Program-made: the position numbers and the translations under genes
The notes under the pieces: model-generated
Seen by the model: the letters and a program-made list of their open reading frames with translations, nothing else
Databases searched by the model: none
What the model was told of the DNA's origin: nothing
Assembly: GCA_029554345.1 (NCBI GenBank)
Contig: JAKPJF010000075.1
Span: 1-47,448 of the forward strand
DNA: 47,448 nucleotides
Direction: 5' to 3'
DNA from: Spirochaetota bacterium
Lineage (GTDB): Bacteria; Spirochaetota; UBA4802; JAFGJZ01
Shown here: in pieces, positions 988 to 47,448 of the stretch
How the letters are laid out: each line of letters begins with the position of its first letter
Position numbering within the stretch: the first letter of the stretch is position 1

Positions 988-1104
988 GATAATCTTTTAA
1001 CTATAGCAAAATACCCCGCCCCTCTTCGAAAACATACACTTCAAAGGTGAACGTCATTGTTTTTTACAAAAACAGTATTTTCTAAATTCTTCAGAATAAA
1101 ATAA

Positions 1105-1580
1105 ATGACATCAACAACACCTAAATCATTCGGCGAAGCCGAATACCAAGGCGGTAGGATAACCGCCATCGAGGCGCTTCACAAGCAAACAGGAAGTTTG
1201 CAAAAAAGCGCCTCGTTAATAAGCGCAGACTATCGCTGCCATTACGTAGTAATGCGCGATAGGTCTGTCGCGATTAAGAGCGGGCGGGGATTTCACCGTC
1301 CAACGCTAACGGGCATCCTGCCCGCGTTGGATTTGCGTCATCCTGACGCTCAGGAAAAGGCTGGCCGTGTGCTCACGATGAGCACGAGCGAGGCGGCAAC
1401 ACGATGTTGAAAGCCGCCAAGGATGAAGCCCGATCCCTTTTGATCTTCTGCATGAGACCATTCAAAAAACGAATCTATAAGGCGAAGCCTTATGTGGTTG
1501 CCCAACTCATGGGCAGAAAGTGAACGGTTATCAAAGGCGGAGCCTTTGAAGCCCGCCCGGCTCTAGGGCATCGCGCATAT
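1105..1580. repeat. Palindrome-rich mosaic element, copy A
   Basis: About 475 bases of noncoding DNA made almost wholly of stem-loops. They are ATTCGGC-GAA-GCCGAAT (1128-1144); GGCGGT/ACCGCC (1150-1167); GAGGCGCTT/AAGCGCCTC (1171-1214) enclosing GCAAAC/GTTTGC; a two-part hairpin with outer arms 1227-1236 and 1256-1266 around CATTAC-GTA-GTAATG (1240-1254); CAACGC/GCGTTG (1301-1329) enclosing GGGCA-TCC-TGCCC; GCGTCA-TCC-TGACGC (1335-1349); GTGCTCA-CGA-TGAGCAC (1369-1385); GGCGGC/GCCGCC (1392-1418); ATAAGGC-GAA-GCCTTAT (1477-1493); TGCCCA/TGGGCA (1499-1515); and TCAAAGGC-GGA-GCCTTTGA (1531-1549). Its skeleton recurs at 35409-35630. A 101-codon reading frame runs through it, but it translates the palindromes and has no ribosome site, so it is not a gene. 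Confidence 0.8.
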
Positions 1581-31461: not shown

Positions 31462-31766
31462 AATCCAAATTGGTTCTCCGAGTACCAAATTTGGTACTCA
31501 AACAGGAAAACTTTCTACTCCGGGAACCAAAATCGACACTCAAAACAAGCAAAACAGGCGCAAAAGACAGTTTTTCAATGTAAAGTAAGAAAATTTTTCT
31601 TCTATAACAGAAAAATTTGGTTCTCAGACAGGAAACATTGGTTCTTCGAGAACCAAAAAGGTCTCTCAGAATAGAAAACTTGGTTATCAGATAAGAAACA
31701 TTGGTACTCAGACAGGAAACTTTGGTTATCAGACAACCAAACTTGATTCTCAAACAAGAAAACTTG
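31462..31766. repeat. Degenerate 21-bp tandem repeat (minisatellite)
   Basis: About 14 imperfect units of roughly 21 bases with consensus near TTGGTTCTCAGACAGGAAAC. The clearest lie at 31617-31760. Because the period is a multiple of three, both long minus-strand frames translate into heptapeptide repeats (CLSTKFS-like in one frame, FLSENQV-like in another). Neither frame has a ribosome site or a start that fits, so coding is unlikely. Confidence 0.7.
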
Positions 31767-31780
31767 CTTGGACGGAGACA

Positions 31781-34129: not shown

Positions 34130-34642
34130 TCATAAGGAGCCATTCTTTATAAATGTTGATAGAACATCGGCTCCAACTTCCGTATATTGTAGCAAATATT
34201 CTTGTCCTGAATATGTAGAAATCCGATTATTAACATCCAGCAAAGGAACAATTCCTAAACGATTTGTTCCTTTTTTACTATCATAATAACCAATTTCCCA
34301 CGGTGTCCAAATGGAGCTTCGCGAATTATGTGTATGTAAATAAATTAAAACTTTTGAGTTATTCATCGCTGTTTTGAGCTTATCCGCAATTTCGTGCCTC
34401 TTTGAATCTGAATCTTCTATCCAATCGATGTAAACGGAAAAACCCATTGCGTTTAATTTATTTTTGAAATTAATTACAATCATTTTGTCCTTTGAACTAT
34501 GTGACAAAAAAATATCCCACGGTTGAAATTCCGATTGGACTTTCAATGAATCTTCTTCCAGATAAGATTCTCGTGAACTATAAACAACTGATCGAGTGCT
34601 AAATGCTGATTCAAAATAAAATTTTTCACCATAGCGTTTCAT
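34130..34642 (-). CDS. TIR-domain protein, third cassette
   Basis: A 170-residue protein. After a short N-terminal stretch, the TIR domain runs from about residue 41 to the end: WDIFLSHSSKDKMIVINFKN, a strand GFSVYIDWIE, KVLIYLHTHNSRSSIWTPWEI with the expected catalytic Glu at 116, and VPLLDV. Bacterial TIR domains are NADases or make cyclic ADP-ribose-like signals in antiphage systems such as Thoeris, or act as cell-killing effectors. The TAA of the 3-TM protein gene is 4 bases upstream and there is no clear ribosome site of its own, so it is translationally coupled. It shares the cassette with that gene. Confidence 0.82.
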   Translation of the reverse strand: MKRYGEKFYFESAFSTRSVVYSSRESYLEEDSLKVQSEFQPWDIFLSHSSKDKMIVINFKNKLNAMGFSVYIDWIEDSDSKRHEIADKLKTAMNNSKVLIYLHTHNSRSSIWTPWEIGYYDSKKGTNRLGIVPLLDVNNRISTYSGQEYLLQYTEVGADVLSTFIKNGSL

Positions 34643-35162: not shown

Positions 35163-35408
35163 ATCAACATACACGGAGAGCATCATGAAATCAATATTTA
35201 CATGACCCTTACAATCTTTTTGAGCAATATTTCCAAAAATGTCAAATCCAAAAAAACCGCCTGCCGCAGAAAGAATTACGCGCGCCCTCACCCAGCCTCT
35301 GGCTCGCCCTCTCCCAGAATGAAGCTCAAATCGGCAAAGCCGATGAAGAAAAACCATTCCCGGGAGAGGGCTTTCTATCAATATTTTACTGATTCAGCAT
35401 GTATTAAA
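35163..35408. other. Noncoding stretch with one long imperfect hairpin
   Basis: No gene is seen. GCCCTCTCCC (35306-35315) pairs with GGGAGAGGGC (35362-35371), extended by AATG/CATT, around ATCGGC-AAA-GCCGAT (35330-35344). Part of the palindrome family but with a CAAAG loop. Confidence 0.5.
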
Positions 35409-35630
35409 TAATACCAACAACACCTGAATCGTCCGACGCAGTCGGACACCGAATAAGCGCAGACTTTCGCAGTTATTACGAAGTAATACGCGAAAGTTCT
35501 GTCGCGACAAAAAGCCGGGTAGGGATTTCAAAAGGGACAGGGCTGGCGACTGAAGCCCTGTCCCTTTTGATCTTATCGTATGAGACCATGCGAAAACCGG
35601 GTAAAGGGCATGGAATGCCCTTTAATGTAC
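35409..35630. repeat. Palindrome-rich mosaic element, copy B
   Basis: Shares its skeleton with copy A (1105-1580): AACAACACCT, a variable hairpin (GTCCGAC-GCA-GTCGGAC, 35431-35447), AATAAGCGCAGACT and a two-part hairpin (outer arms 35461-35470 and 35490-35500 around TATTAC-GAA-GTAATA, 35474-35488). Then come CTGTCGCGA, GGGATTTCA, a perfect 17-bp stem (35528-35544 with 35554-35570), TCCCTTTTGATCTT and ATGAGACCAT. Compared with copy A, stem bases differ in compensating pairs. The end holds AAAGGGCAT-GGA-ATGCCCTTT (35603-35623), part of a 31-base string repeated at 47253. Confidence 0.8.
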
Positions 35631-35759
35631 GTCCGACTCTCGGAAGAATTTATTGTTGAAATCAGTTAATTAATTCTTATTCTCAGCGAACTTCCTATTC
35701 GCTTCGAATGAGATTTTGAATTGATTTAACGCACCAACCTATGAGGTAACGCTTACATT

Positions 35760-35983
35760 TTCCCGCTATGGACTTCGTCCATCTCGCGGGCAGTCGGAAC
35801 GAGTCCGACAAACGAGACGCTTCAATATGCGACACGACGTCGCAACGAAAGCGTCTCATCAGTTTCCGCTTCCTTGCGGAAACGGCATGACACCATGCAA
35901 ACGACGAATACATAAGGCGGAGCCTTATGACAAAAAAAAACCGCGTTACAAACGCGGGCCGATCTTTAAGCCGAAGGCTTAAA
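35760..35983. repeat. Palindrome cluster downstream of gltD
   Basis: In order: CCCGC/GCGGG (35762-35790) enclosing ATGGAC-TTC-GTCCAT; GTCGGA/TCCGAC (35793-35809); GAGACGCTT (35814-35822)/AAGCGTCTC (35849-35857) enclosing TGCGAC/GTCGCA; GTTTCCGC/GCGGAAAC (35862-35883); GCATG/CATGC (35885-35898); CATAAGGC-GGA-GCCTTATG (35911-35929); CCGCGTT-ACA-AACGCGG (35941-35957); and TTTAAGCC-GAA-GGCTTAAA (35965-35983). The last ends 4 bases from the gltD stop. Confidence 0.75.
35931..35957 (-). terminator. Terminator of gltD
   Basis: On the minus strand a 7-bp GC-rich stem (35941-35957) is followed by nine T (A-run at 35932-35940). It is a standard intrinsic terminator 30 bases after the gltD stop. Confidence 0.85.
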
Positions 35984-35986
35984 AAA

Positions 35987-37405
35987 TTATTTAGAAAGAA
36001 ACTCATTTATAGCATTCGCGGCACCGCGTCCTTCGCTGATAGCGTAAACAACAAGAGAAGCTCCCCTGTTCGCGTCGCCTGCGGCAAATACTTTATCAAC
36101 GCTTGTTTTAAAATCAGCGCCGGTATCGATATTTCCGCGGGCATCAAGCTTGAGTCCGAGTTCGTTGACAAAATCCTTCTGCACTACATGAACAAATCCC
36201 ATTGCAAGAAGAACAAGATCAGCTTCGATCTCGAATTCACTGCCCGGAACTTCCTTCATATTAAATCTTCCGTTTTCATTTACCCACTCTACTTTGCACG
36301 CGAGAACATTCTTTACTTTTCCGTTTTCGCCGATAAATTTCTTAGAGCTGATGCACCAGAGTCTTTCACAACCTTCTTCATGAGAGCTTGAAGTCTTGTG
36401 AAGTCTAGGCCATAGAGGCCACGGTTCGGAATCAGTTCTTGTCTTTGACGGCATCGGAAGAAGCTCGATCTGAGTGACTTTTCTCGCGCCTTGACGGTTA
36501 GCTGTTCCGACACAGTCAGAACCCGTATCACCGCCGCCGATTACGAGAACATTTTTATCAAGAGCGGCTATTAAAGAATCCTGACACACCTTATCTCCCG
36601 CGCAGGTTTTATTCTGCTGAGTGAGATAATCAAGTGCCTGATGAATTCCTGAAAGCTCTCTTCCTTCGATTGGAAGATCTCTCGCTTCGCGCGCACCGAT
36701 TGTTATACAAACGGCGTCATATTCTTTCATGATGTCGTTGATCTTCACATCGCGTCCGACATACGAATTCGTTTTAAAAGTAACACCTTCTTCTTTCATG
36801 ATGTCGAGACGGCGGTCGATAAAACTTTTTTCGAGTTTAAAATCAGGAATACCGTATCTCAAATATCCGCCCACTCTGTCAGTGCCTTCAAACAATGTAA
36901 CCAAGTGACCGGCTTTATTCAGCTGATCAGCAGCAGCAAGTCCCGCAGGACCACCGCCGATAACGGCAACTTTCTTGCCGCTTCTTTTTTTAGGCGGATT
37001 AGCTTTAACGAGACCAAGCTCAAAAGCCTTTTCAATTACGGCAAGCTCGTTCTGTCTGATGGTGACGGCTTCGTCATTCAGCGCAAGAACGCATGAAGCT
37101 TCGCAAAGAGCCGGGCATACACGCCCAGTAAACTCAGGAAAATTATTTGTCTCCTGAAGCATTTCCCATGCTTCTTTCCATTCGCCTTTAAATATTTTAT
37201 CCTGCCATTCAGGCATGATGTTTGAAACCGGGCATGCCCAGTGGCAGAACGGAACTCCGCAATCCATACATCTTGATGCCTGAAGTTTTCTTTCGTCTTC
37301 CGAAAGCTGAAGCTCTACTTCACTGTAGTCATTTATTCTCTGTTCAACCGGTCTGTAACCGGCAACCTTTCTGTTTGTTTTGAGAAAGCCTGTAGGATCA
37401 CCCAT
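35987..37405 (-). CDS. gltD: Glutamate synthase small (beta) subunit
   Basis: A 472-residue FAD/4Fe-4S protein. The N-terminus has cluster cysteines in RCMDCGVPFCHWACPVSNIM and GRVCPALCEASCVLAL. FAD and NADPH sites follow: VIGGGPAGLAAADQLNKAGH and VIGGGDTGSDCVGTA, with LLAMGFVH and KVFAAGDANRGASLVV. It takes electrons from NADPH and passes them to the large subunit to make glutamate from glutamine and 2-oxoglutarate. Its ATG shares one base with the gltB stop (TAATG), so the two are coupled in one operon. A terminator follows at once. Confidence 0.96.
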   Translation of the reverse strand: MGDPTGFLKTNRKVAGYRPVEQRINDYSEVELQLSEDERKLQASRCMDCGVPFCHWACPVSNIMPEWQDKIFKGEWKEAWEMLQETNNFPEFTGRVCPALCEASCVLALNDEAVTIRQNELAVIEKAFELGLVKANPPKKRSGKKVAVIGGGPAGLAAADQLNKAGHLVTLFEGTDRVGGYLRYGIPDFKLEKSFIDRRLDIMKEEGVTFKTNSYVGRDVKINDIMKEYDAVCITIGAREARDLPIEGRELSGIHQALDYLTQQNKTCAGDKVCQDSLIAALDKNVLVIGGGDTGSDCVGTANRQGARKVTQIELLPMPSKTRTDSEPWPLWPRLHKTSSSHEEGCERLWCISSKKFIGENGKVKNVLACKVEWVNENGRFNMKEVPGSEFEIEADLVLLAMGFVHVVQKDFVNELGLKLDARGNIDTGADFKTSVDKVFAAGDANRGASLVVYAISEGRGAANAINEFLSK

Positions 37406-42926: not shown

Positions 42927-44261
42927 TTATTTTGACGTCCGTGCAGCGAATTCCTTTTCAAGAGCTTCAGTCACTTTAGCAACATCCGCCGCGAGACGGA
43001 GAGGTTTATTCGCGTGCTTCGACTCGATGCCCTTCAAAGAAGACTCATGATAGCCGACTTTAAATTCAGAGAATTTTAGTCCATGCGCCGTTGAAACAAC
43101 AACAGTACGCGAATCCTTTTTGATTTCGCCTTTATCAACAAGCTTGATGAGTGCTGCAAGCGCAACTGCGGTATGCGGACATGTGTACATTCCTGTTTTA
43201 TCAGCAACAGCAGCCGCGTCGGCGAGTTCATCTTCGCTAGCATCTTCAACTATTCCATTGAAATCTTTGAGTCCCTTGATCGCCTTCTTAACAGAAACCG
43301 GATCCCCGATCTGTATCGCCGACGCCAGAGTCTTTTCAGCCTTAACCGGCTCAAACGATTCGTAGTTTTTGAGATACGATCTATAGAGCGGATTCGCGTT
43401 TCTCGCCTGAGCAAGAATTATGCGCGGCTTCTTCGTAATGATGCCGAGATCAAGCATTAGAGAAAAACCTTTTGCAAGAGCCGAAACATTTCCGAGATTT
43501 CCGCCCGGAATAATTATATTATCAGGAACTTCCCAGCCGAACTGCTGAACGATTTCAGGTGCAATAGTTTTCTGACCTTCGATTCTAAGCGAGTTCATCG
43601 AATTGGCGAGATATATCTCGTTATTCTTTGTAACTTCCTGAACGATTTTCATACAGCCGTCAAAGTCTGTGTCGATTGAAAGAACAATCGAATTATTTGA
43701 AATAGGCTGAACAAGCTGTGCAGTTGTAATCTTGTCTGCAGGAAGAAACACAATAGACGGAATGCCTGCATACGCACAATATGCCGAAAGAGCCGCCGAA
43801 GTATCGCCTGTTGAAGCGCATGCCACAGCTTTAATTTTCTTTCCGCGCGCGATCATGTCATTGACCTGCGAAACAAGAACCGTCATTCCGAGATCCTTGA
43901 AAGAACCGGTGTGAGTGTTTCCGCACATCTTTACCCAGAGATCGTTCATGCCGAGAAATCCGCCGAATCTCTTCGCCCAGAAAAGATTGCTGTTTCCTTC
44001 GTACATAGAAACGATATTTTCGTCATCGATGTCGGGATTAATCCACTCCTTATAGCGCCATACACCCGAGCCGAACGGCCATTTGGTAGTTCCCATTCTC
44101 GAAGAAAAAGTTTCCTTCCACTCCGACGCTGATTTCTTTTTAAGATAATCAGCGTCATGATGAACCTCGAGAAGAGATCCGCACTTAGGGCACTTGTATA
44201 TAATATCAGTTAAAGAAAATTTACCTTCGCATCCGTCGATACATCTAAAATATGCATTCAT
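42927..44261 (-). CDS. thrC: Threonine synthase
   Basis: A 444-residue PLP enzyme converting O-phosphohomoserine to threonine. The N-terminus has a zinc-ribbon-like set of cysteines (C7, C11, C24, C27 in [12 protein letters not shown] and [11 protein letters not shown]). The PLP lysine is K122 in [13 protein letters not shown]. Further signs are [17 protein letters not shown] (phosphate loop), [16 protein letters not shown] and [11 protein letters not shown]. Its ATG overlaps the hom stop by one base (TGATG), so the pair is translated together. Confidence 0.95.
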
Positions 44262-45541
44262 CAGTCTTCCACCCTTATTACAACTACTTCTTCTTTTATA
44301 AAACTGAACTCATTTATGAGCTCAAGCGATTTCTTCATCGAAGCCTCGCTCGCACTGTGCGTCATTATTATGAGAGGCACAGTATTATCAGTGCTGTCTT
44401 TTTCTTTCTGAACCACAGACGCGATGGAAATATTGTTTTTAGCGAATACTCCCGCGACTTTTTCAAGCACGCCTGAAGAATCCTCAGTGCGCATTCTGAA
44501 ATAAAAACGCGAGCATCTTTCTCCCGATGGAAGAAGCTCCGCCTTTCCGTCAAGATGAAGAGCGCTGTCTTCAACAAGAGTGTTCTGCGAAATTCTGACT
44601 ACGTCACCGACAACAGCTGACGCAGTCGGGAATGAACCGGCGCCCTTACCGAAAAGAACCACATTGCCTGTCATATCCGCGTCAAAAAGAATCGCGTTAA
44701 ATTCGCGTCTGACTGACGCGAGCTGGTGATTTTTTCTGATCATCGTCGGATGAACACGTATATCGATTTTGCCGTTTACATCTTTAGCAATTCCGAGAAG
44801 TTTTATGACGTAACCCATCTCGCGCGCGAAATGCATGTCGATAGAAGAAATACGGGTTATACCTTCCTTAGAAACAGACGAATAATCAATTTCTTTATTG
44901 AAAGAAAGCATTCCGAGAAGAGTAATCTTGTGACCGGCATCATATCCTTCGATATCGAAAGTCGGATCAGCTTCGGCAAAACCTTCACGCTGAGCTTCCT
45001 TGAGCGCATCGCCGAAAGAAAGCCCGCCCTCTTCCATGCGAGTTAAAATATAGTTTGTTGTTCCGTTTAAAATTCCCATTACGCTGTTAATGCGGTTTCC
45101 GACAAGACCCGATTTAAGCGCGTCAAGGCATGGAATACCGCCTCCGACACTCGCCTCAAAGCCGAGCTTGACCTTGCTGTTTTTGACAATTGAGAAAATT
45201 TCACTGCCTGCTTCAGCAAGAAGCTTTTTATTCGCAGTGACAACATTCTTTCCGGCTTTCAATGCTTCGATTATCATAGATTTGGCCGGCTCAACGCCGC
45301 CTATAAGTTCAACAACAGTATCAATTTCTTTATCATTAATTATATCTTTCCAGTTCGTCGTAAGGGCGGTTCCGGCAACTTCTGAAGCGATTTTGTCTGC
45401 ACGCAGATCACAGATCATTTTGACCGACACATTAAGTCCGGTGCGCGCCGCAATAACTTCAGAATTTTTCTTGAGGAGACCATAAACTCCGCTGCCGACA
45501 GTGCCGTAGCCGATGAGTCCGATCTTGACATCTTTTTTCAT
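44261..45541 (-). CDS. hom: Homoserine dehydrogenase
   Basis: A 426-residue enzyme reducing aspartate semialdehyde to homoserine. It has the N-terminal [30 protein letters not shown], the catalytic-domain signature [15 protein letters not shown] and [20 protein letters not shown]-terminal ACT domain ([20 protein letters not shown]) would bind threonine for feedback control. I start at the ATG 45539-45541 after AGGTTT; the frame extends to 45598 without support. TTGACA (complement 45593-45598) lies 51 nt upstream. First gene of the threonine operon. Confidence 0.96.
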
Positions 45542-45611
45542 AAACCTAACCCTTGATATAATTTTGCTAAAACTTATTTCAAGCGGACTTTTTGTCAATA
45601 ATAATGATTTT

Positions 45612-45990
45612 ATTCAAAGGCTTCGCCTTTTGATCCGTTATTCGCATGGTGTCATGCAATACACAAAAGGTGCTCCGCACCTTTTAAATCCATTTGTCCA
45701 TTTCTTTTGCGTCGCCCAAAAGAAATGGACGAAAGAAAAGGGCGCCGCTGCGCGGTGCTTGTCTCGCGTATTCCTCGCACCGGCGTTGCCGGATGCTGCG
45801 GTCGCTCGAGTTGTGTCCGACTGCGTCGGACAGTTTAGGTTCATTTTCTGCTCACTCAGCTTTTGCGTCTGTATTGACTCTTTATCACTCACTCCTTGCC
45901 CAGACTTCCGACAACCATATCCTTATGCCTCATTGATTTCAATGACGACATAAGGCCGCTTATCCTAAACCGGATGGGAGTTTAGTTCGA
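45612..45990. repeat. Palindrome cluster upstream of hom
   Basis: No gene is seen here. The stem-loops are AAAGGC-TTC-GCCTTT (45616-45630); GCATG/CATGC (45644-45657, the same string as at 35885 in reverse); AAAAGGTGC-TCC-GCACCTTTT (45665-45685); a perfect 14-bp stem with arms 45696-45709 and 45717-45730; GCGCCGC-TGC-GCGGTGC (45742-45758, one G-T); GCA + CCGGC-GTT-GCCGG + TGC (45777-45795); TGTCCGAC-TGC-GTCGGACA (45814-45832); CCTTATG/CATAAGG (45921-45955) enclosing TCATTG/CAATGA; and CTAAAC/GTTTAG near 45966. Short frames through the palindromes have no ribosome sites. Confidence 0.75.
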
Positions 45991-46001
45991 ATCTAATTGT
46001 A

Positions 46002-46412
46002 CTACTTTAATAGCAATAATCCTTTATACGAAAATAAATCATTTGTCGTAATTACTTTCATTTTATTCTTATTTTTCTGAGCAATTCTAAATTTAACAGT
46101 TATTTTATTATTTGAAAAAATATACTCTTCAGATGGATAAGAAATACCTTCTTCATCTTCATCTATTTCGATTCCAGTATTTTTTTCAGCTACACCTTTA
46201 AAAACTATATTATTAGTTTTATTGTTTTTATCCAAAAATTCACAATAAAAATCAATACCATTTTTTACATAAGTAACAATTACCGTTTGAGAAATCTGAC
46301 TATTTTCGAAATAGTATGTTTTTTTGATGTCTTCAGACCTGCAATTTGCAAAAATCAAAAGACTTATACCGATTAACATATTTTTACCACTTAACAATCT
46401 ACCGCATTTCAT
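46002..46412 (-). CDS. Hypothetical lipoprotein, possible immunity protein
   Basis: A 136-residue lipoprotein: signal MKCGRLLSGKNMLIGISLLI ending FANC, lipobox Cys at 24. The mature part is rich in Lys, Asn, Glu and Ile with alternating strands (QTVIVTYVKNGIDFYCEFLD, ITVKFRIAQKN). A strong GGAGGTGG ribosome site precedes the ATG. The start overlaps, by 14 bases, the end of an upstream open frame that reads like the C-terminus of a secreted toxin. Toxin followed by a lipoprotein immunity gene is a known layout, so that role is possible but unproven. AT-rich, unlike the hom-thrC genes beside it. Confidence 0.65.
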   Translation of the reverse strand: MKCGRLLSGKNMLIGISLLIFANCRSEDIKKTYYFENSQISQTVIVTYVKNGIDFYCEFLDKNNKTNNIVFKGVAEKNTGIEIDEDEEGISYPSEEYIFSNNKITVKFRIAQKNKNKMKVITTNDLFSYKGLLLLK

Positions 46413-46644
46413 TCACACCACCTCCAGCAGGTATTCCATTAGCATTTAAAATTACAATTTGGCGTAACACCAGATGAGAGTCTAAATCCTGACACTTCAT
46501 TTTGAGAAAATAGCGAATATTTGACAGAATCTCCCGACTACCTCTCAATATAACCAATTCACTTCTCTCAGTTTTTCCTACTACAGATCCAACATGACCT
46601 TTTCCTCCACCCCAATTAAATATTGTAAGATCACTAGTAACTAT
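46399..46644 (-). pseudogene. Remnant of a larger protein's C-terminus, possibly a toxin
   Basis: The minus strand is open without a start codon from 46644 to the TAG at 46399-46401 (81 residues). It reads TIFNWGGGKGHVGSVVGKTE, RSELVILRGSREILSNIRYF and then ends NANGIPAGGGVNEMR. The NWGGGKGHVGSVVG pattern recalls C-terminal toxin domains of polymorphic secretion proteins, though I cannot name a family. The upstream part of the gene is missing. Its end overlaps the lipoprotein gene. Confidence 0.45.
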
Positions 46645-46667
46645 CTAGAAAAGTTTATATGAAAATA

Positions 46668-46884
46668 TTATAAATTTACATAACAACCATACTCGATGTC
46701 TTTTTCATGGCTGTCAAAAAATATACTTTTTCGATCAAATGCTATCCAATGTCCTTCCGAAAATTTAGCATAGCTAGAATTTTTTTCTTTTATATTCCAT
46801 TTTCAGATAAAGTCTCTCAGGTTTACTTAATAAAAATTTTTTCGCAACATTGATCCAATTATCTTTTATATTAAGCATTTTCAT
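46668..46884 (-). pseudogene. Small gene with an A7 frameshift
   Basis: The ATG at 46882-46884 begins MKMLNIKDNWINVAKKFLLS and runs to a stop just after a run of seven A (complement 46780-46786). Skipping one base in this run joins it to a second frame, KNSSYAKFSEGHWIAFDRKS to the TAA at 46668-46670. That gives one protein of about 71 residues with a normal ending (DIEYGCYVNL). The size and charge resemble immunity proteins. Read as a frameshifted gene, or one needing slippage on the A-run. Confidence 0.45.
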
Positions 46885-46914
46885 CGTCAATCCAATATTA
46901 TAATCCAAAATATT

Positions 46915-47290
46915 ACAAAGGCGAAGCCTTATTCTACAAGTCCGATCTGTCCGCATTAAATTTTCCCAATCCTGACCCACAGGAAGAGAAGCGATCGTGA
47001 GCTCTGAAAGTAATTAACGAATGACAGAAAAAGCCTTTAAAAACTTCATCCGCAGAATAAGTTACGCGTATACTGAGCGAAGCGAATAAACGCGTAATGA
47101 TATTATCAATTAAATGATTCCCGAAATTACGAAAGTGCGCTAAGCACTTCAGAAAGATATGCATGAAAGAAAAAGAAATTAAGGGGTCTGGGGATATCCC
47201 CAGCGGCTTTTCTTTGCGGTACTTTCTTTTTGCCGAAAAAAAAGAAAGTACCAAAACCGGGTAAAGGGCATGGAATGCCCTTTGATTTTT
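46915..47290. repeat. Palindrome cluster near the right end
   Basis: No gene is seen. The stem-loops are AAGGC-GAA-GCCTT (46918-46930); TTACGCGT (47062-47069)/ACGCGTAA (47090-47097) enclosing GCGAAGC (47077-47083); AAGTGC/GCACTT (near 47132-47148); GGGGATATCCCC (47190-47201); a 14-bp stem with arms 47218-47231 and 47239-47252; and AAAGGGCAT-GGA-ATGCCCTTT (47263-47283). The last is inside a 31-base string identical to 35593-35623. Confidence 0.75.
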
Positions 47291-47359
47291 ATCTTGATTT
47301 ATTATACAAAATGCATCACTGAAGATATTATACTGAACTATTAGTTTTAAAGAGGTAAA

Positions 47360-47448
47360 ATGAAAAAATTCACATTTGCATTATGCGTATTATGTACTTT
47401 TATATTTTCATTCTCGCAGGCGAATCAGCAAAGAAGAAAAGTTTTATT
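47360..47448 (+). CDS. Start of a secreted protein, cut by the window edge
   Basis: An ATG at 47360 after AAAGAGGT opens a frame that runs off the window. The first 29 residues are a classical Sec signal: MKKFTFALCVLCTFIFSFSQ, with likely cleavage after SQA, then NQQRRKVL. There is no lipobox at the cleavage point, so an exported periplasmic or outer-membrane protein is likely. Nothing can be said of its function. Confidence 0.7.
   Translation, partial: MKKFTFALCVLCTFIFSFSQANQQRRKVL

Follow-up and report, generated by a model that had tools for sequence, protein, structure and literature searches.

A putative self-nesting double-hairpin mobile DNA family in intergenic regions of one spirochaete genus

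The locus and its two-hairpin unit

The window, the whole stretch of 47,448 nucleotides that was analysed, is contig C153 of the genome of an uncultured spirochaete (G000; 3.03 Mb, 214 contigs, 96% complete), and it was compared with a congener (G001, 66% complete), so that two species of one genus are represented. Near its right-hand part, a gene for a GltD-like protein with 98% identity to its counterpart in "Spirochaetes bacterium isolate UR.bin167" stands beside a composite repeat, element B. Composite elements of this kind are a few hundred bp long and are built of units lying within one another, and the segments of repeat territory that they occupy range from 90 to 938 bp. The first-pass annotation had drawn attention to a hairpin at 35814-35857 and to a similar one at 1171-1214. 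Both were located where it had placed them: GAGACGCTT (35814-35822) pairs with AAGCGTCTC (35849-35857) around an inner TGCGAC/GTCGCA hairpin, while the comparison hairpin has GAGGCGCTT/AAGCGCCTC as its outer arms and GCAAAC/GTTTGC as its inner arms, and CA begins the loop in each. A further hairpin at 35793-35809, which that annotation overlooked, belongs to the same unit as the former. The features are as follows.

1084-1549, plus strand: composite element A (repeat territory)
1128-1144, plus strand: head hairpin hp1 of element A, ATTCGGC gaa GCCGAAT
1150-1215, plus strand: unit S2, between hp1 and hp2, with P hairpin GGCGGT aggata ACCGCC and Q hairpin CGAGGCGCTT..AAGCGCCTCG; the comparison copy of the first-pass annotation
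1299-1349, minus strand: unit S6, P hairpin GCGTC aggat GACGC, Q hairpin TCCAACG[CGGGC aggat GCCCG]ttag CGTTGGA
1369-1418, plus strand: unit S5, P hairpin GTGCTC acgat GAGCAC, Q hairpin GGCGG[CAAC acgat GTTG]aaag CCGCC
35393-35930, plus strand: composite element B, core of the repeat territory 35200-35929
35431-35447, plus strand: head hairpin hp1 of element B, GTCCGAC gca GTCGGAC, its stem variable between copies
35762-35790, minus strand: Q part of host unit S7, CCCGC..GCGGG, inner ATGGAC ttc GTCCAT (read from the sequence)
35793-35809, plus strand: P hairpin of unit S1, GTCGGA acgag TCCGAC (read from the sequence, folded together with Q)
35814-35857, plus strand: Q hairpin of unit S1, outer GAGACGCTT/AAGCGTCTC, inner TGCGAC acgac GTCGCA (pattern, covariation, covariance model, DNA fold)
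35862-35883, minus strand: P part of host unit S7, GTTTCCGC ttcctt GCGGAAAC; empty linker counterparts read GCGGGCAATGTTTCC
35885-35929, plus strand: small hairpins of the tail train, GCATG acac CATGC and CATAAGGC gga GCCTTATG
35987-37405: GltD-like gene product, beside element B
45600-45870, minus strand: third composite element, head hairpin TGTCCGAC tgc GTCGGACA (read on the plus strand)

The unit is about 50-70 bp long and consists of a P hairpin, a linker of 2-7 nt and a Q hairpin, the last made up of an outer stem, an internal loop and an inner hairpin; a P hairpin precedes every Q hairpin examined for its upstream context. When P and Q of the S1 unit in the window were folded together as DNA, they took exactly the two-hairpin form (-21.3 kcal/mol, z -5.8). 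A search for units with A[CG]GA in the P loop, a short linker and A[CG]GA in the Q inner loop covered 34.3 kb of repeat territory (60-base margins included) and 116.9 kb of flanks from G000 and G001. It found 45 units (34 in G000 and 11 in G001, at 44 places and with 38 distinct strings), all of them in repeat territory, with none in the flanks and none in any of 10 shuffles. The units fall into seven stem families, S1 with 9 members, S2 with 10, S3 with 9, S4 with 3, S5 with 5, S6 with 7 and S7 with 2. Distinct stem strings number 18 for P, 20 for the outer and 17 for the inner stem of Q if length variants are counted apart, and 10, 12 and 11, respectively, if only the four loop-proximal pairs are considered.

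Because the unit search itself imposes A[CG]GA loops, a repeat search blind to the loops was also run, and it returned 48 two-hairpin matches in the territory and 5 in the flanks. A[CG]GA was present in both loops of 29 of the 48 matches, in one loop of 7 and in neither loop of 12 (at least one loop in 36/48), some of these 12 being units seen from the opposite strand or tail-train hairpins with GNA loops. The same loops are, therefore, carried on unrelated stems: the loops are kept while the stems are replaced in matched pairs. The territory is also rich in hairpins generally, those with at least 6 Watson-Crick pairs occurring at 14.05 per kb, compared with about 1.3 in shuffled sequence, whereas the flanks have 2.72 per kb compared with 2.1-2.3.

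Covariation, wobble and the drift of stems

The arm pattern GAGNCGCTTN{8,38}AAGCGNCTC occurs at 12 listed places in G000, all 12 inside repeat territory by their coordinates, and the reversed-pattern control gave 0. These represent 11 separate places because the C81/C178 copy is double, the starts of the two contigs being an identical 141 bases (overlapping ends) that gives rise to duplicate counts. The first-pass annotation had proposed a covarying module on the strength of a compensated change between its two outer stems, and this was borne out: the change is present, further copies exist in the genome with their arms paired, and covariation is far above that of shuffles, although mismatches do occur in some copies, at 16 of the 448 pairs counted in 28 distinct ones. 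An alignment of 16 Q copies, 15 of them distinct, is nearly gapless over 46 columns; the outer stem spans 10 bp and the inner one 6 bp, 97.5% of cells are paired, and 13 of the 16 base pairs show both-sided changes. The covariation score was 0.612, compared with 0.193 (sd 0.028) for shuffles, none of 500 of which scored as high, and at most 0.114 for slid controls. The number of further pair types was not exceptional (17 versus 15.3 in shuffles, reached by 117 of 500). Changed cells comprised 50 double, 3 one-sided and 6 unpaired, counts that come from related copies, not independent events.

With a covariance model of the 16 copies, at least 25 matches were obtained in G000, where 150 of 1105 first-look candidates were scored, and at least 9 in G001, where 150 of 691 were. 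G001 contributed a third compensated outer stem, GAGTCGCTT/AAGCGACTC, together with the inner stem TTTGAC/GTCAAA, and one G001 copy has arms that disagree at this outer position. In the related families S1 and S2, compensated drift affects the outer stem (GAGACG, GAGGCG, GAGTCG) and inner stems are exchanged (TGCGAC, GCAAAC, CCGGC, TTCCGAC, TTTGAC); across families the outer stem is itself exchanged (GCGATGCC, GGCGG, TCCAACG, GACTC), and what remains constant is the loops, the short spacers and the two-hairpin plan. The earlier suggestion that the outer stem is kept while an inner cargo is swapped captured the exchange of inner stems between S1 and S2, but not the drift of the outer stem between them or its exchange across families. 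Likewise, the inner hairpin is part of the unit and not cargo, although in 5 of the 12 separate S1 Q hairpins captured by the search patterns the inner loop is indeed replaced by an inverted second unit.

Wobble pairs were counted over 28 distinct Q copies from 25 chosen sources. Of 40 matches, six were dropped as antisense, one as a repeated stretch and five as identical rows, and the G000 matches on C146 and C198 lay outside the count. The Q copies had been selected with a model that favours paired sequences. Their 448 pairs consist of 425 Watson-Crick pairs, 7 G-U pairs and 16 mismatches. G-U accounts for 7 of 432 standard pairs in Q and for 45 of 719 in 33 tRNAs of G000 (Fisher p 0.0002, only indicative for related copies). 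As 7 of 23 departures from Watson-Crick pairing (p 0.63 against 25%, p 0.09 against 1/6), the G-U share is near the level expected of unselected substitution; against one sixth, wobble would be mildly favoured. The scarcity of G-U in Q fits DNA palindromes better than RNA, and the dominance of double changes is the pattern predicted by arm-to-arm copying (PMC8794818).

Head hairpins behave in the same manner, with 242 of 245 hp1 pairs Watson-Crick, 3 G-U and ten different perfect 7-bp stems among 35 copies, which were picked by eye from 59 rows, the others being chance matches or other hairpins. To be retained by the search, a copy needed at least 5 of its 7 pairs, and three good heads (element B of the window, C72 and G001:C305) were lost to the flank filter. 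A broken head hairpin lies near position 1430 of C183, and a chimaeric junction in G001:C190 joins the inner hairpin of hp2 to an hp1 flank.

Nesting and comparison of two species

Units recur inside the loops and linkers of other units and hairpins, and each such context is also met in empty form elsewhere. The counts derive from regular expressions applied to 51 stretches chosen because they matched, a procedure that misses diverged copies. Loops of AAGGC(GNA)GCCTT-like hairpins contain S3 in 11 cases and are empty in 34; S1 lies in the S7 linker in 14 (13 places), with 10 empty; S5 occupies GGCTGGC/GAAGCC sites in 5, with 15 empty; and an inverted unit occupies the S1 inner loop in 5, with 8 simple loops (7 places). 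The hairpin at 35814-35857 is one of the filled cases, its S1 unit sitting in the linker between two S7 hairpins, and the minus-strand S7 layout occurs also at other loci (2 units). Similarly, S5 in the window is flanked by GGCTGGC and GATGAAGCC, which in other copies make up the loop side of a hairpin of the GGGCT..AGCCC type.

Among the five nested S1 inner loops, that of C11 holds an inverted unit whose own P hairpin is degraded. The stems enclosing the inverted unit are unlike, GCAAAC/GTTTGC in C34 and C33 and GCGAC/GTCGC in C11, so that both stem arms differ, with about 60 nt of insert between them. No clear target duplication was seen by eye at the filled and empty sites, so that independent insertion is not proven and a given context may go back to a single early insertion that was duplicated together with its host.

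The family was detected in one genus. When 392 Spirochaetes genomes were scanned with the covariance model, matches came from two, both members of this genus; the filters were stricter and, among the rows listed, 15 candidates were scored for each genome, so that weak copies elsewhere may be missed. Two sister-genus genomes gave no covariance-model matches among the 150 first-look candidates scored in each. BLAST with element B matched 2 of 98 relatives (at most 6 candidates scored per genome). Two genomes only carry the trait. Within them, element B matched 80 pieces in G000, and element A matched 58 in G000 and 42 in G001.

At four loci (gltD, C54/C283, C60/C243 and C76/C4) G000 and G001 carry an element at the same place with different interiors, orthology being indicated by one conserved flank at each. 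At one of these, S2 is present in G001:C243 and not in G000:C60; the neighbouring hp2 differs too, one flank is shared, and block exchange is possible. C168/C203 is the sole pair that is conserved on both sides and colinear. There, identity is 95.7% inside the element (19 gap columns) and 90-97% outside, so the element changes at about the rate of its flanks; one compensated change is present (TCAAAGGC/GCCTTTGA to TCAAAGAC/GTCTTTGA), some hairpins lose pairing, and nothing has been swapped. Comparison of positions 44000-47448 of the window revealed no whole-element empty site between G000 and G001, as the segment at about 44002-45864, third element included, has its match in G001:C158. Neither transposition events nor intermediates were seen in the two genomes, where presence and absence could be demonstrated for inner units alone.

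Explanations and known systems

The architecture, the kept loops, the matched replacement of stems, the nesting with empty counterparts, the common positions with reshuffled interiors and the detection in a single genus are all matters of observation. On balance, they probably, though far from certainly, reflect a non-autonomous and self-nesting family of double-hairpin mobile DNA that has multiplied between genes and come to lie in the loops and linkers of its relatives. In such a family, the unit would be recognised as folded single-stranded DNA or as a cruciform through its A[CG]GAN loops, and stems would be free to change provided that they pair. Hairpin loops exposed during replication would serve as insertion targets, perfect Watson-Crick stems would persist because one arm is copied from the other (template switching) and because copies recombine, and the enzyme would act in trans. 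A more tentative extension, which seems possible but rather doubtful, is that the family represents a distinct class of bacterial mobile DNA, in which a trans-acting enzyme recognises a folded single strand only via two small loops and inserts it into exposed hairpin loops, those of its own copies first. Were this so, Russian-doll hairpins would pile up in a genome while their stem sequences remained free to change, and a loop-recognising enzyme, if it exists, would be a new kind of mobiliser.

Several searches were directed at such an enzyme or at a home for the repeat. The Y1 transposase model (PF01797) had no match in G000 or G001, at their 96% and 66% completeness, and matched in G002 and G003 of the sister genus and in 5 of 14 controls. 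Neither G000 nor G001 has a match to integron integrase (TIGR02249) above the cut-off (best 134 bits versus 265). The R'/R'' core-box consensus of attC was used to test the unit ends, and core boxes were found at 0 of 45 units at either end; with no integrase over the cut-off, an integron attC identity was rejected. A reverse transcriptase (RVT_1) matched once in G000 and not in G001. Because it is present as a single copy, the group II intron that holds it was taken as a visitor to the repeat and not as its driver. No recurrent neighbour gene emerged among the 25 largest clusters listed (ORFs of at least 60 codons within 1.6 kb of an element), which consisted of pairs at shared loci, one three-member cluster (C72, C76 and G001:C4), the identical pair C72/C135 and weak pairs at 27-29% and 42% identity. 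A phage, plasmid or viral home was likewise rejected, element B being unmatched in phages and plasmids and one pattern unmatched in viral contigs.

That intron occupies positions 1-1795 of G000:C114 (Rfam RF02005, RF00029) and contains the sole RVT_1 match of G000; its 3' end at C114:1795 abuts repeat territory, and such introns may use hairpins as landing sites. In G000:C72 and G000:C135 there are two copies of a small gene of about 86-92 codons, 100% identical in the aligned part, and an element follows each. Tyrosine recombinase-like matches below the integron cut-off occur at G001:C326 2728-3528 and at several places in G000:C180, and one of them lies about 320 bp from the element piece G001:C326:2326-2408.

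A mobile family has to be weighed against passive spread, an unlikely but substantial rival, in which intergenic DNA is merely recombined and duplicated, matched stems are a by-product of template switching and the hairpins are recognised by nothing. Reshuffled interiors in shared elements, the G001:C190 chimaera and the enzyme searches that gave no candidate are all in line with it. Changes restricted to Watson-Crick combinations and compensated changes of several bases are, moreover, what template switching predicts in PMC8794818, which describes hairpins so maintained with their loop retained; that paper concerns a mutational process and not an element, and here the process would act on a dispersed repeat family. 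However, passive spread leaves unexplained why A[CG]GAN loops sit on unrelated stems in 29 of 48 loop-blind matches and why units recur in loops and linkers. A quite improbable reading takes the hairpins for structured RNAs, which might, for instance, act as sponges for CsrA or another regulator that binds loops. GGA in hairpin loops is the consensus of CsrB/RsmZ-type CsrA sponges, and CAGGAxG loops may resemble CsrB repeats; CAGGA(A/G/T)G loops are common in Q, covariation is strong, and CsrA was found in 7 of 7 genomes searched, G000 and G001 included. Yet five of the searched genomes that have CsrA lie outside the genus, and among the 45 units GGA occurs in only 14 P loops and 31 Q loops, and in both loops of 11, with ACGAY loops standing in, counts by which the sponge identity is weakened. 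The scarcity of G-U also speaks against RNA, as does strand: among 28 units with a single head strand, S6 is opposite to the head in 6 of 6 cases and S1, S2, S3 and S5 share the head's strand in 22 of 22, so that the element is internally ordered, yet presents like loops on both strands. Nor do flanking genes share an orientation, being 13 tandem (7 and 6), 5 divergent and 4 convergent by rough ORF calls for the 22 of 27 elements with both neighbours called. A known Rfam RNA was rejected, with no match over the gathering score in the window; over 8 element loci, two sub-threshold matches (snoR64, E 0.48, and mir-3170, E 0.18) look like chance.

Gene orientation bears equally on intrinsic terminator clusters or 3' end stabilisers, an identity to which very little probability is given: 4 of the 22 elements lie between convergent genes, but 5 lie between divergent genes, where no gene ends. 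Terminator-like sites are somewhat above shuffles (4 versus 1.3 at 35200-36000; 4 versus 0.7 at 1000-1640), and hairpin clusters able to terminate transcription are reported (PMC8355165). Of the 8 sites, however, only CCGCGTT/AACGCGG (35957-35941), beside gltD and outside the unit, has a long unbroken T-run, unless one counts the T6 at 1226-1208, the stem of which spans module boundaries. A REP/REPIN family that has lost its RAYT transposase, or in which the transposase was overlooked, is disfavoured and scarcely probable. REP, BIME and REPIN sequences resemble the units in being intergenic, present in many copies, hairpin-forming and non-autonomous, with compensatory stem changes (PMC3116915, PMC3733652), and CGTC-type REPs occur in Spirochaetes without a dedicated transposase (PMC3733652). 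REPINs are, however, tied to RAYTs (PMC3116915), whereas G000 and G001 have no Y1 match although two sister-genus genomes do; GTAG was found near 1 and CGTC near 2 of 45 unit ends, and the spirochaete units comprise two unequal hairpins that nest in one another.

If the repeats are indeed a hairpin-type non-autonomous mobile DNA, as appears somewhat probable, they would belong to no named family, with the double-hairpin elements (DHEs) compared by description. DHEs were reportedly described by Paquin, Laforest and Lang in 2000 from Allomyces and other fungal mitochondrial DNAs. They are cited in PMC5910586 and appear nearest in plan, with two adjacent hairpins as the unit, a non-coding nature and suggested mobility; the spirochaete family differs in its bacterial chromosomal location, its seven stem families with A[CG]GAN loops and its recursive nesting. 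GC42 and other GC clusters of yeast mitochondria (PMC4478555) and the sponge RHE (PMC2800124) are likewise palindromic, repeated and thought to be mobile, the GC clusters being shuffled and merged. In contrast, changes in GC42 fall mostly in loops (loop:stem 367:174 and 48:2; PMC4478555) and the stems of RHE are described as conserved (PMC2800124), the reverse of the spirochaete units, in which stems change and loops are kept. Among the titles and abstract openings returned by the literature searches, which extended to neither subscription papers nor preprints, none concerned a spirochaete repeat of this type or self-nesting double hairpins in bacteria.

The family may also matter for how covariation is read. 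As a rule, covariation counts as proof that an RNA is functional. In this family, dozens of copies from a single genome combine strong covariation with few wobbles, and wobble is scarcely favoured relative to mismatch; this points to a process at the DNA level and counsels that covariation alone should not be read as RNA function. The family also offers a natural data set for the arm-to-arm copying of palindromes and for how hairpin loops become insertion targets.

Other features of the window were noted in passing. The third element (45600-45870) carries a long GTCCATTTCTTTTG..CAAAAGAAATGGAC hairpin and is matched in G001:C158. Another repeat family, at 47054-47286, combines a GGTACTTTCTTTTT..AAAAAGAAAGTACC hairpin with a copy of AAAGGGCAT gga ATGCCCTTT and has several copies in G001. 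A long-loop hairpin, GCCCTCTCCC..GGGAGAGGGC, lies upstream of the head in several elements (35306-35371 in the window, and also C54, C89 and G001:C283) and looks like a separate repeat. An imperfect tandem array with 21-nt spacing occupies 31486-31770 in a region of small ORFs, and a TIR-domain protein (Pfam TIR_2, ThsB_TIR) is encoded at 34130-34642 on the minus strand beside small genes, a possible defence gene near element B.
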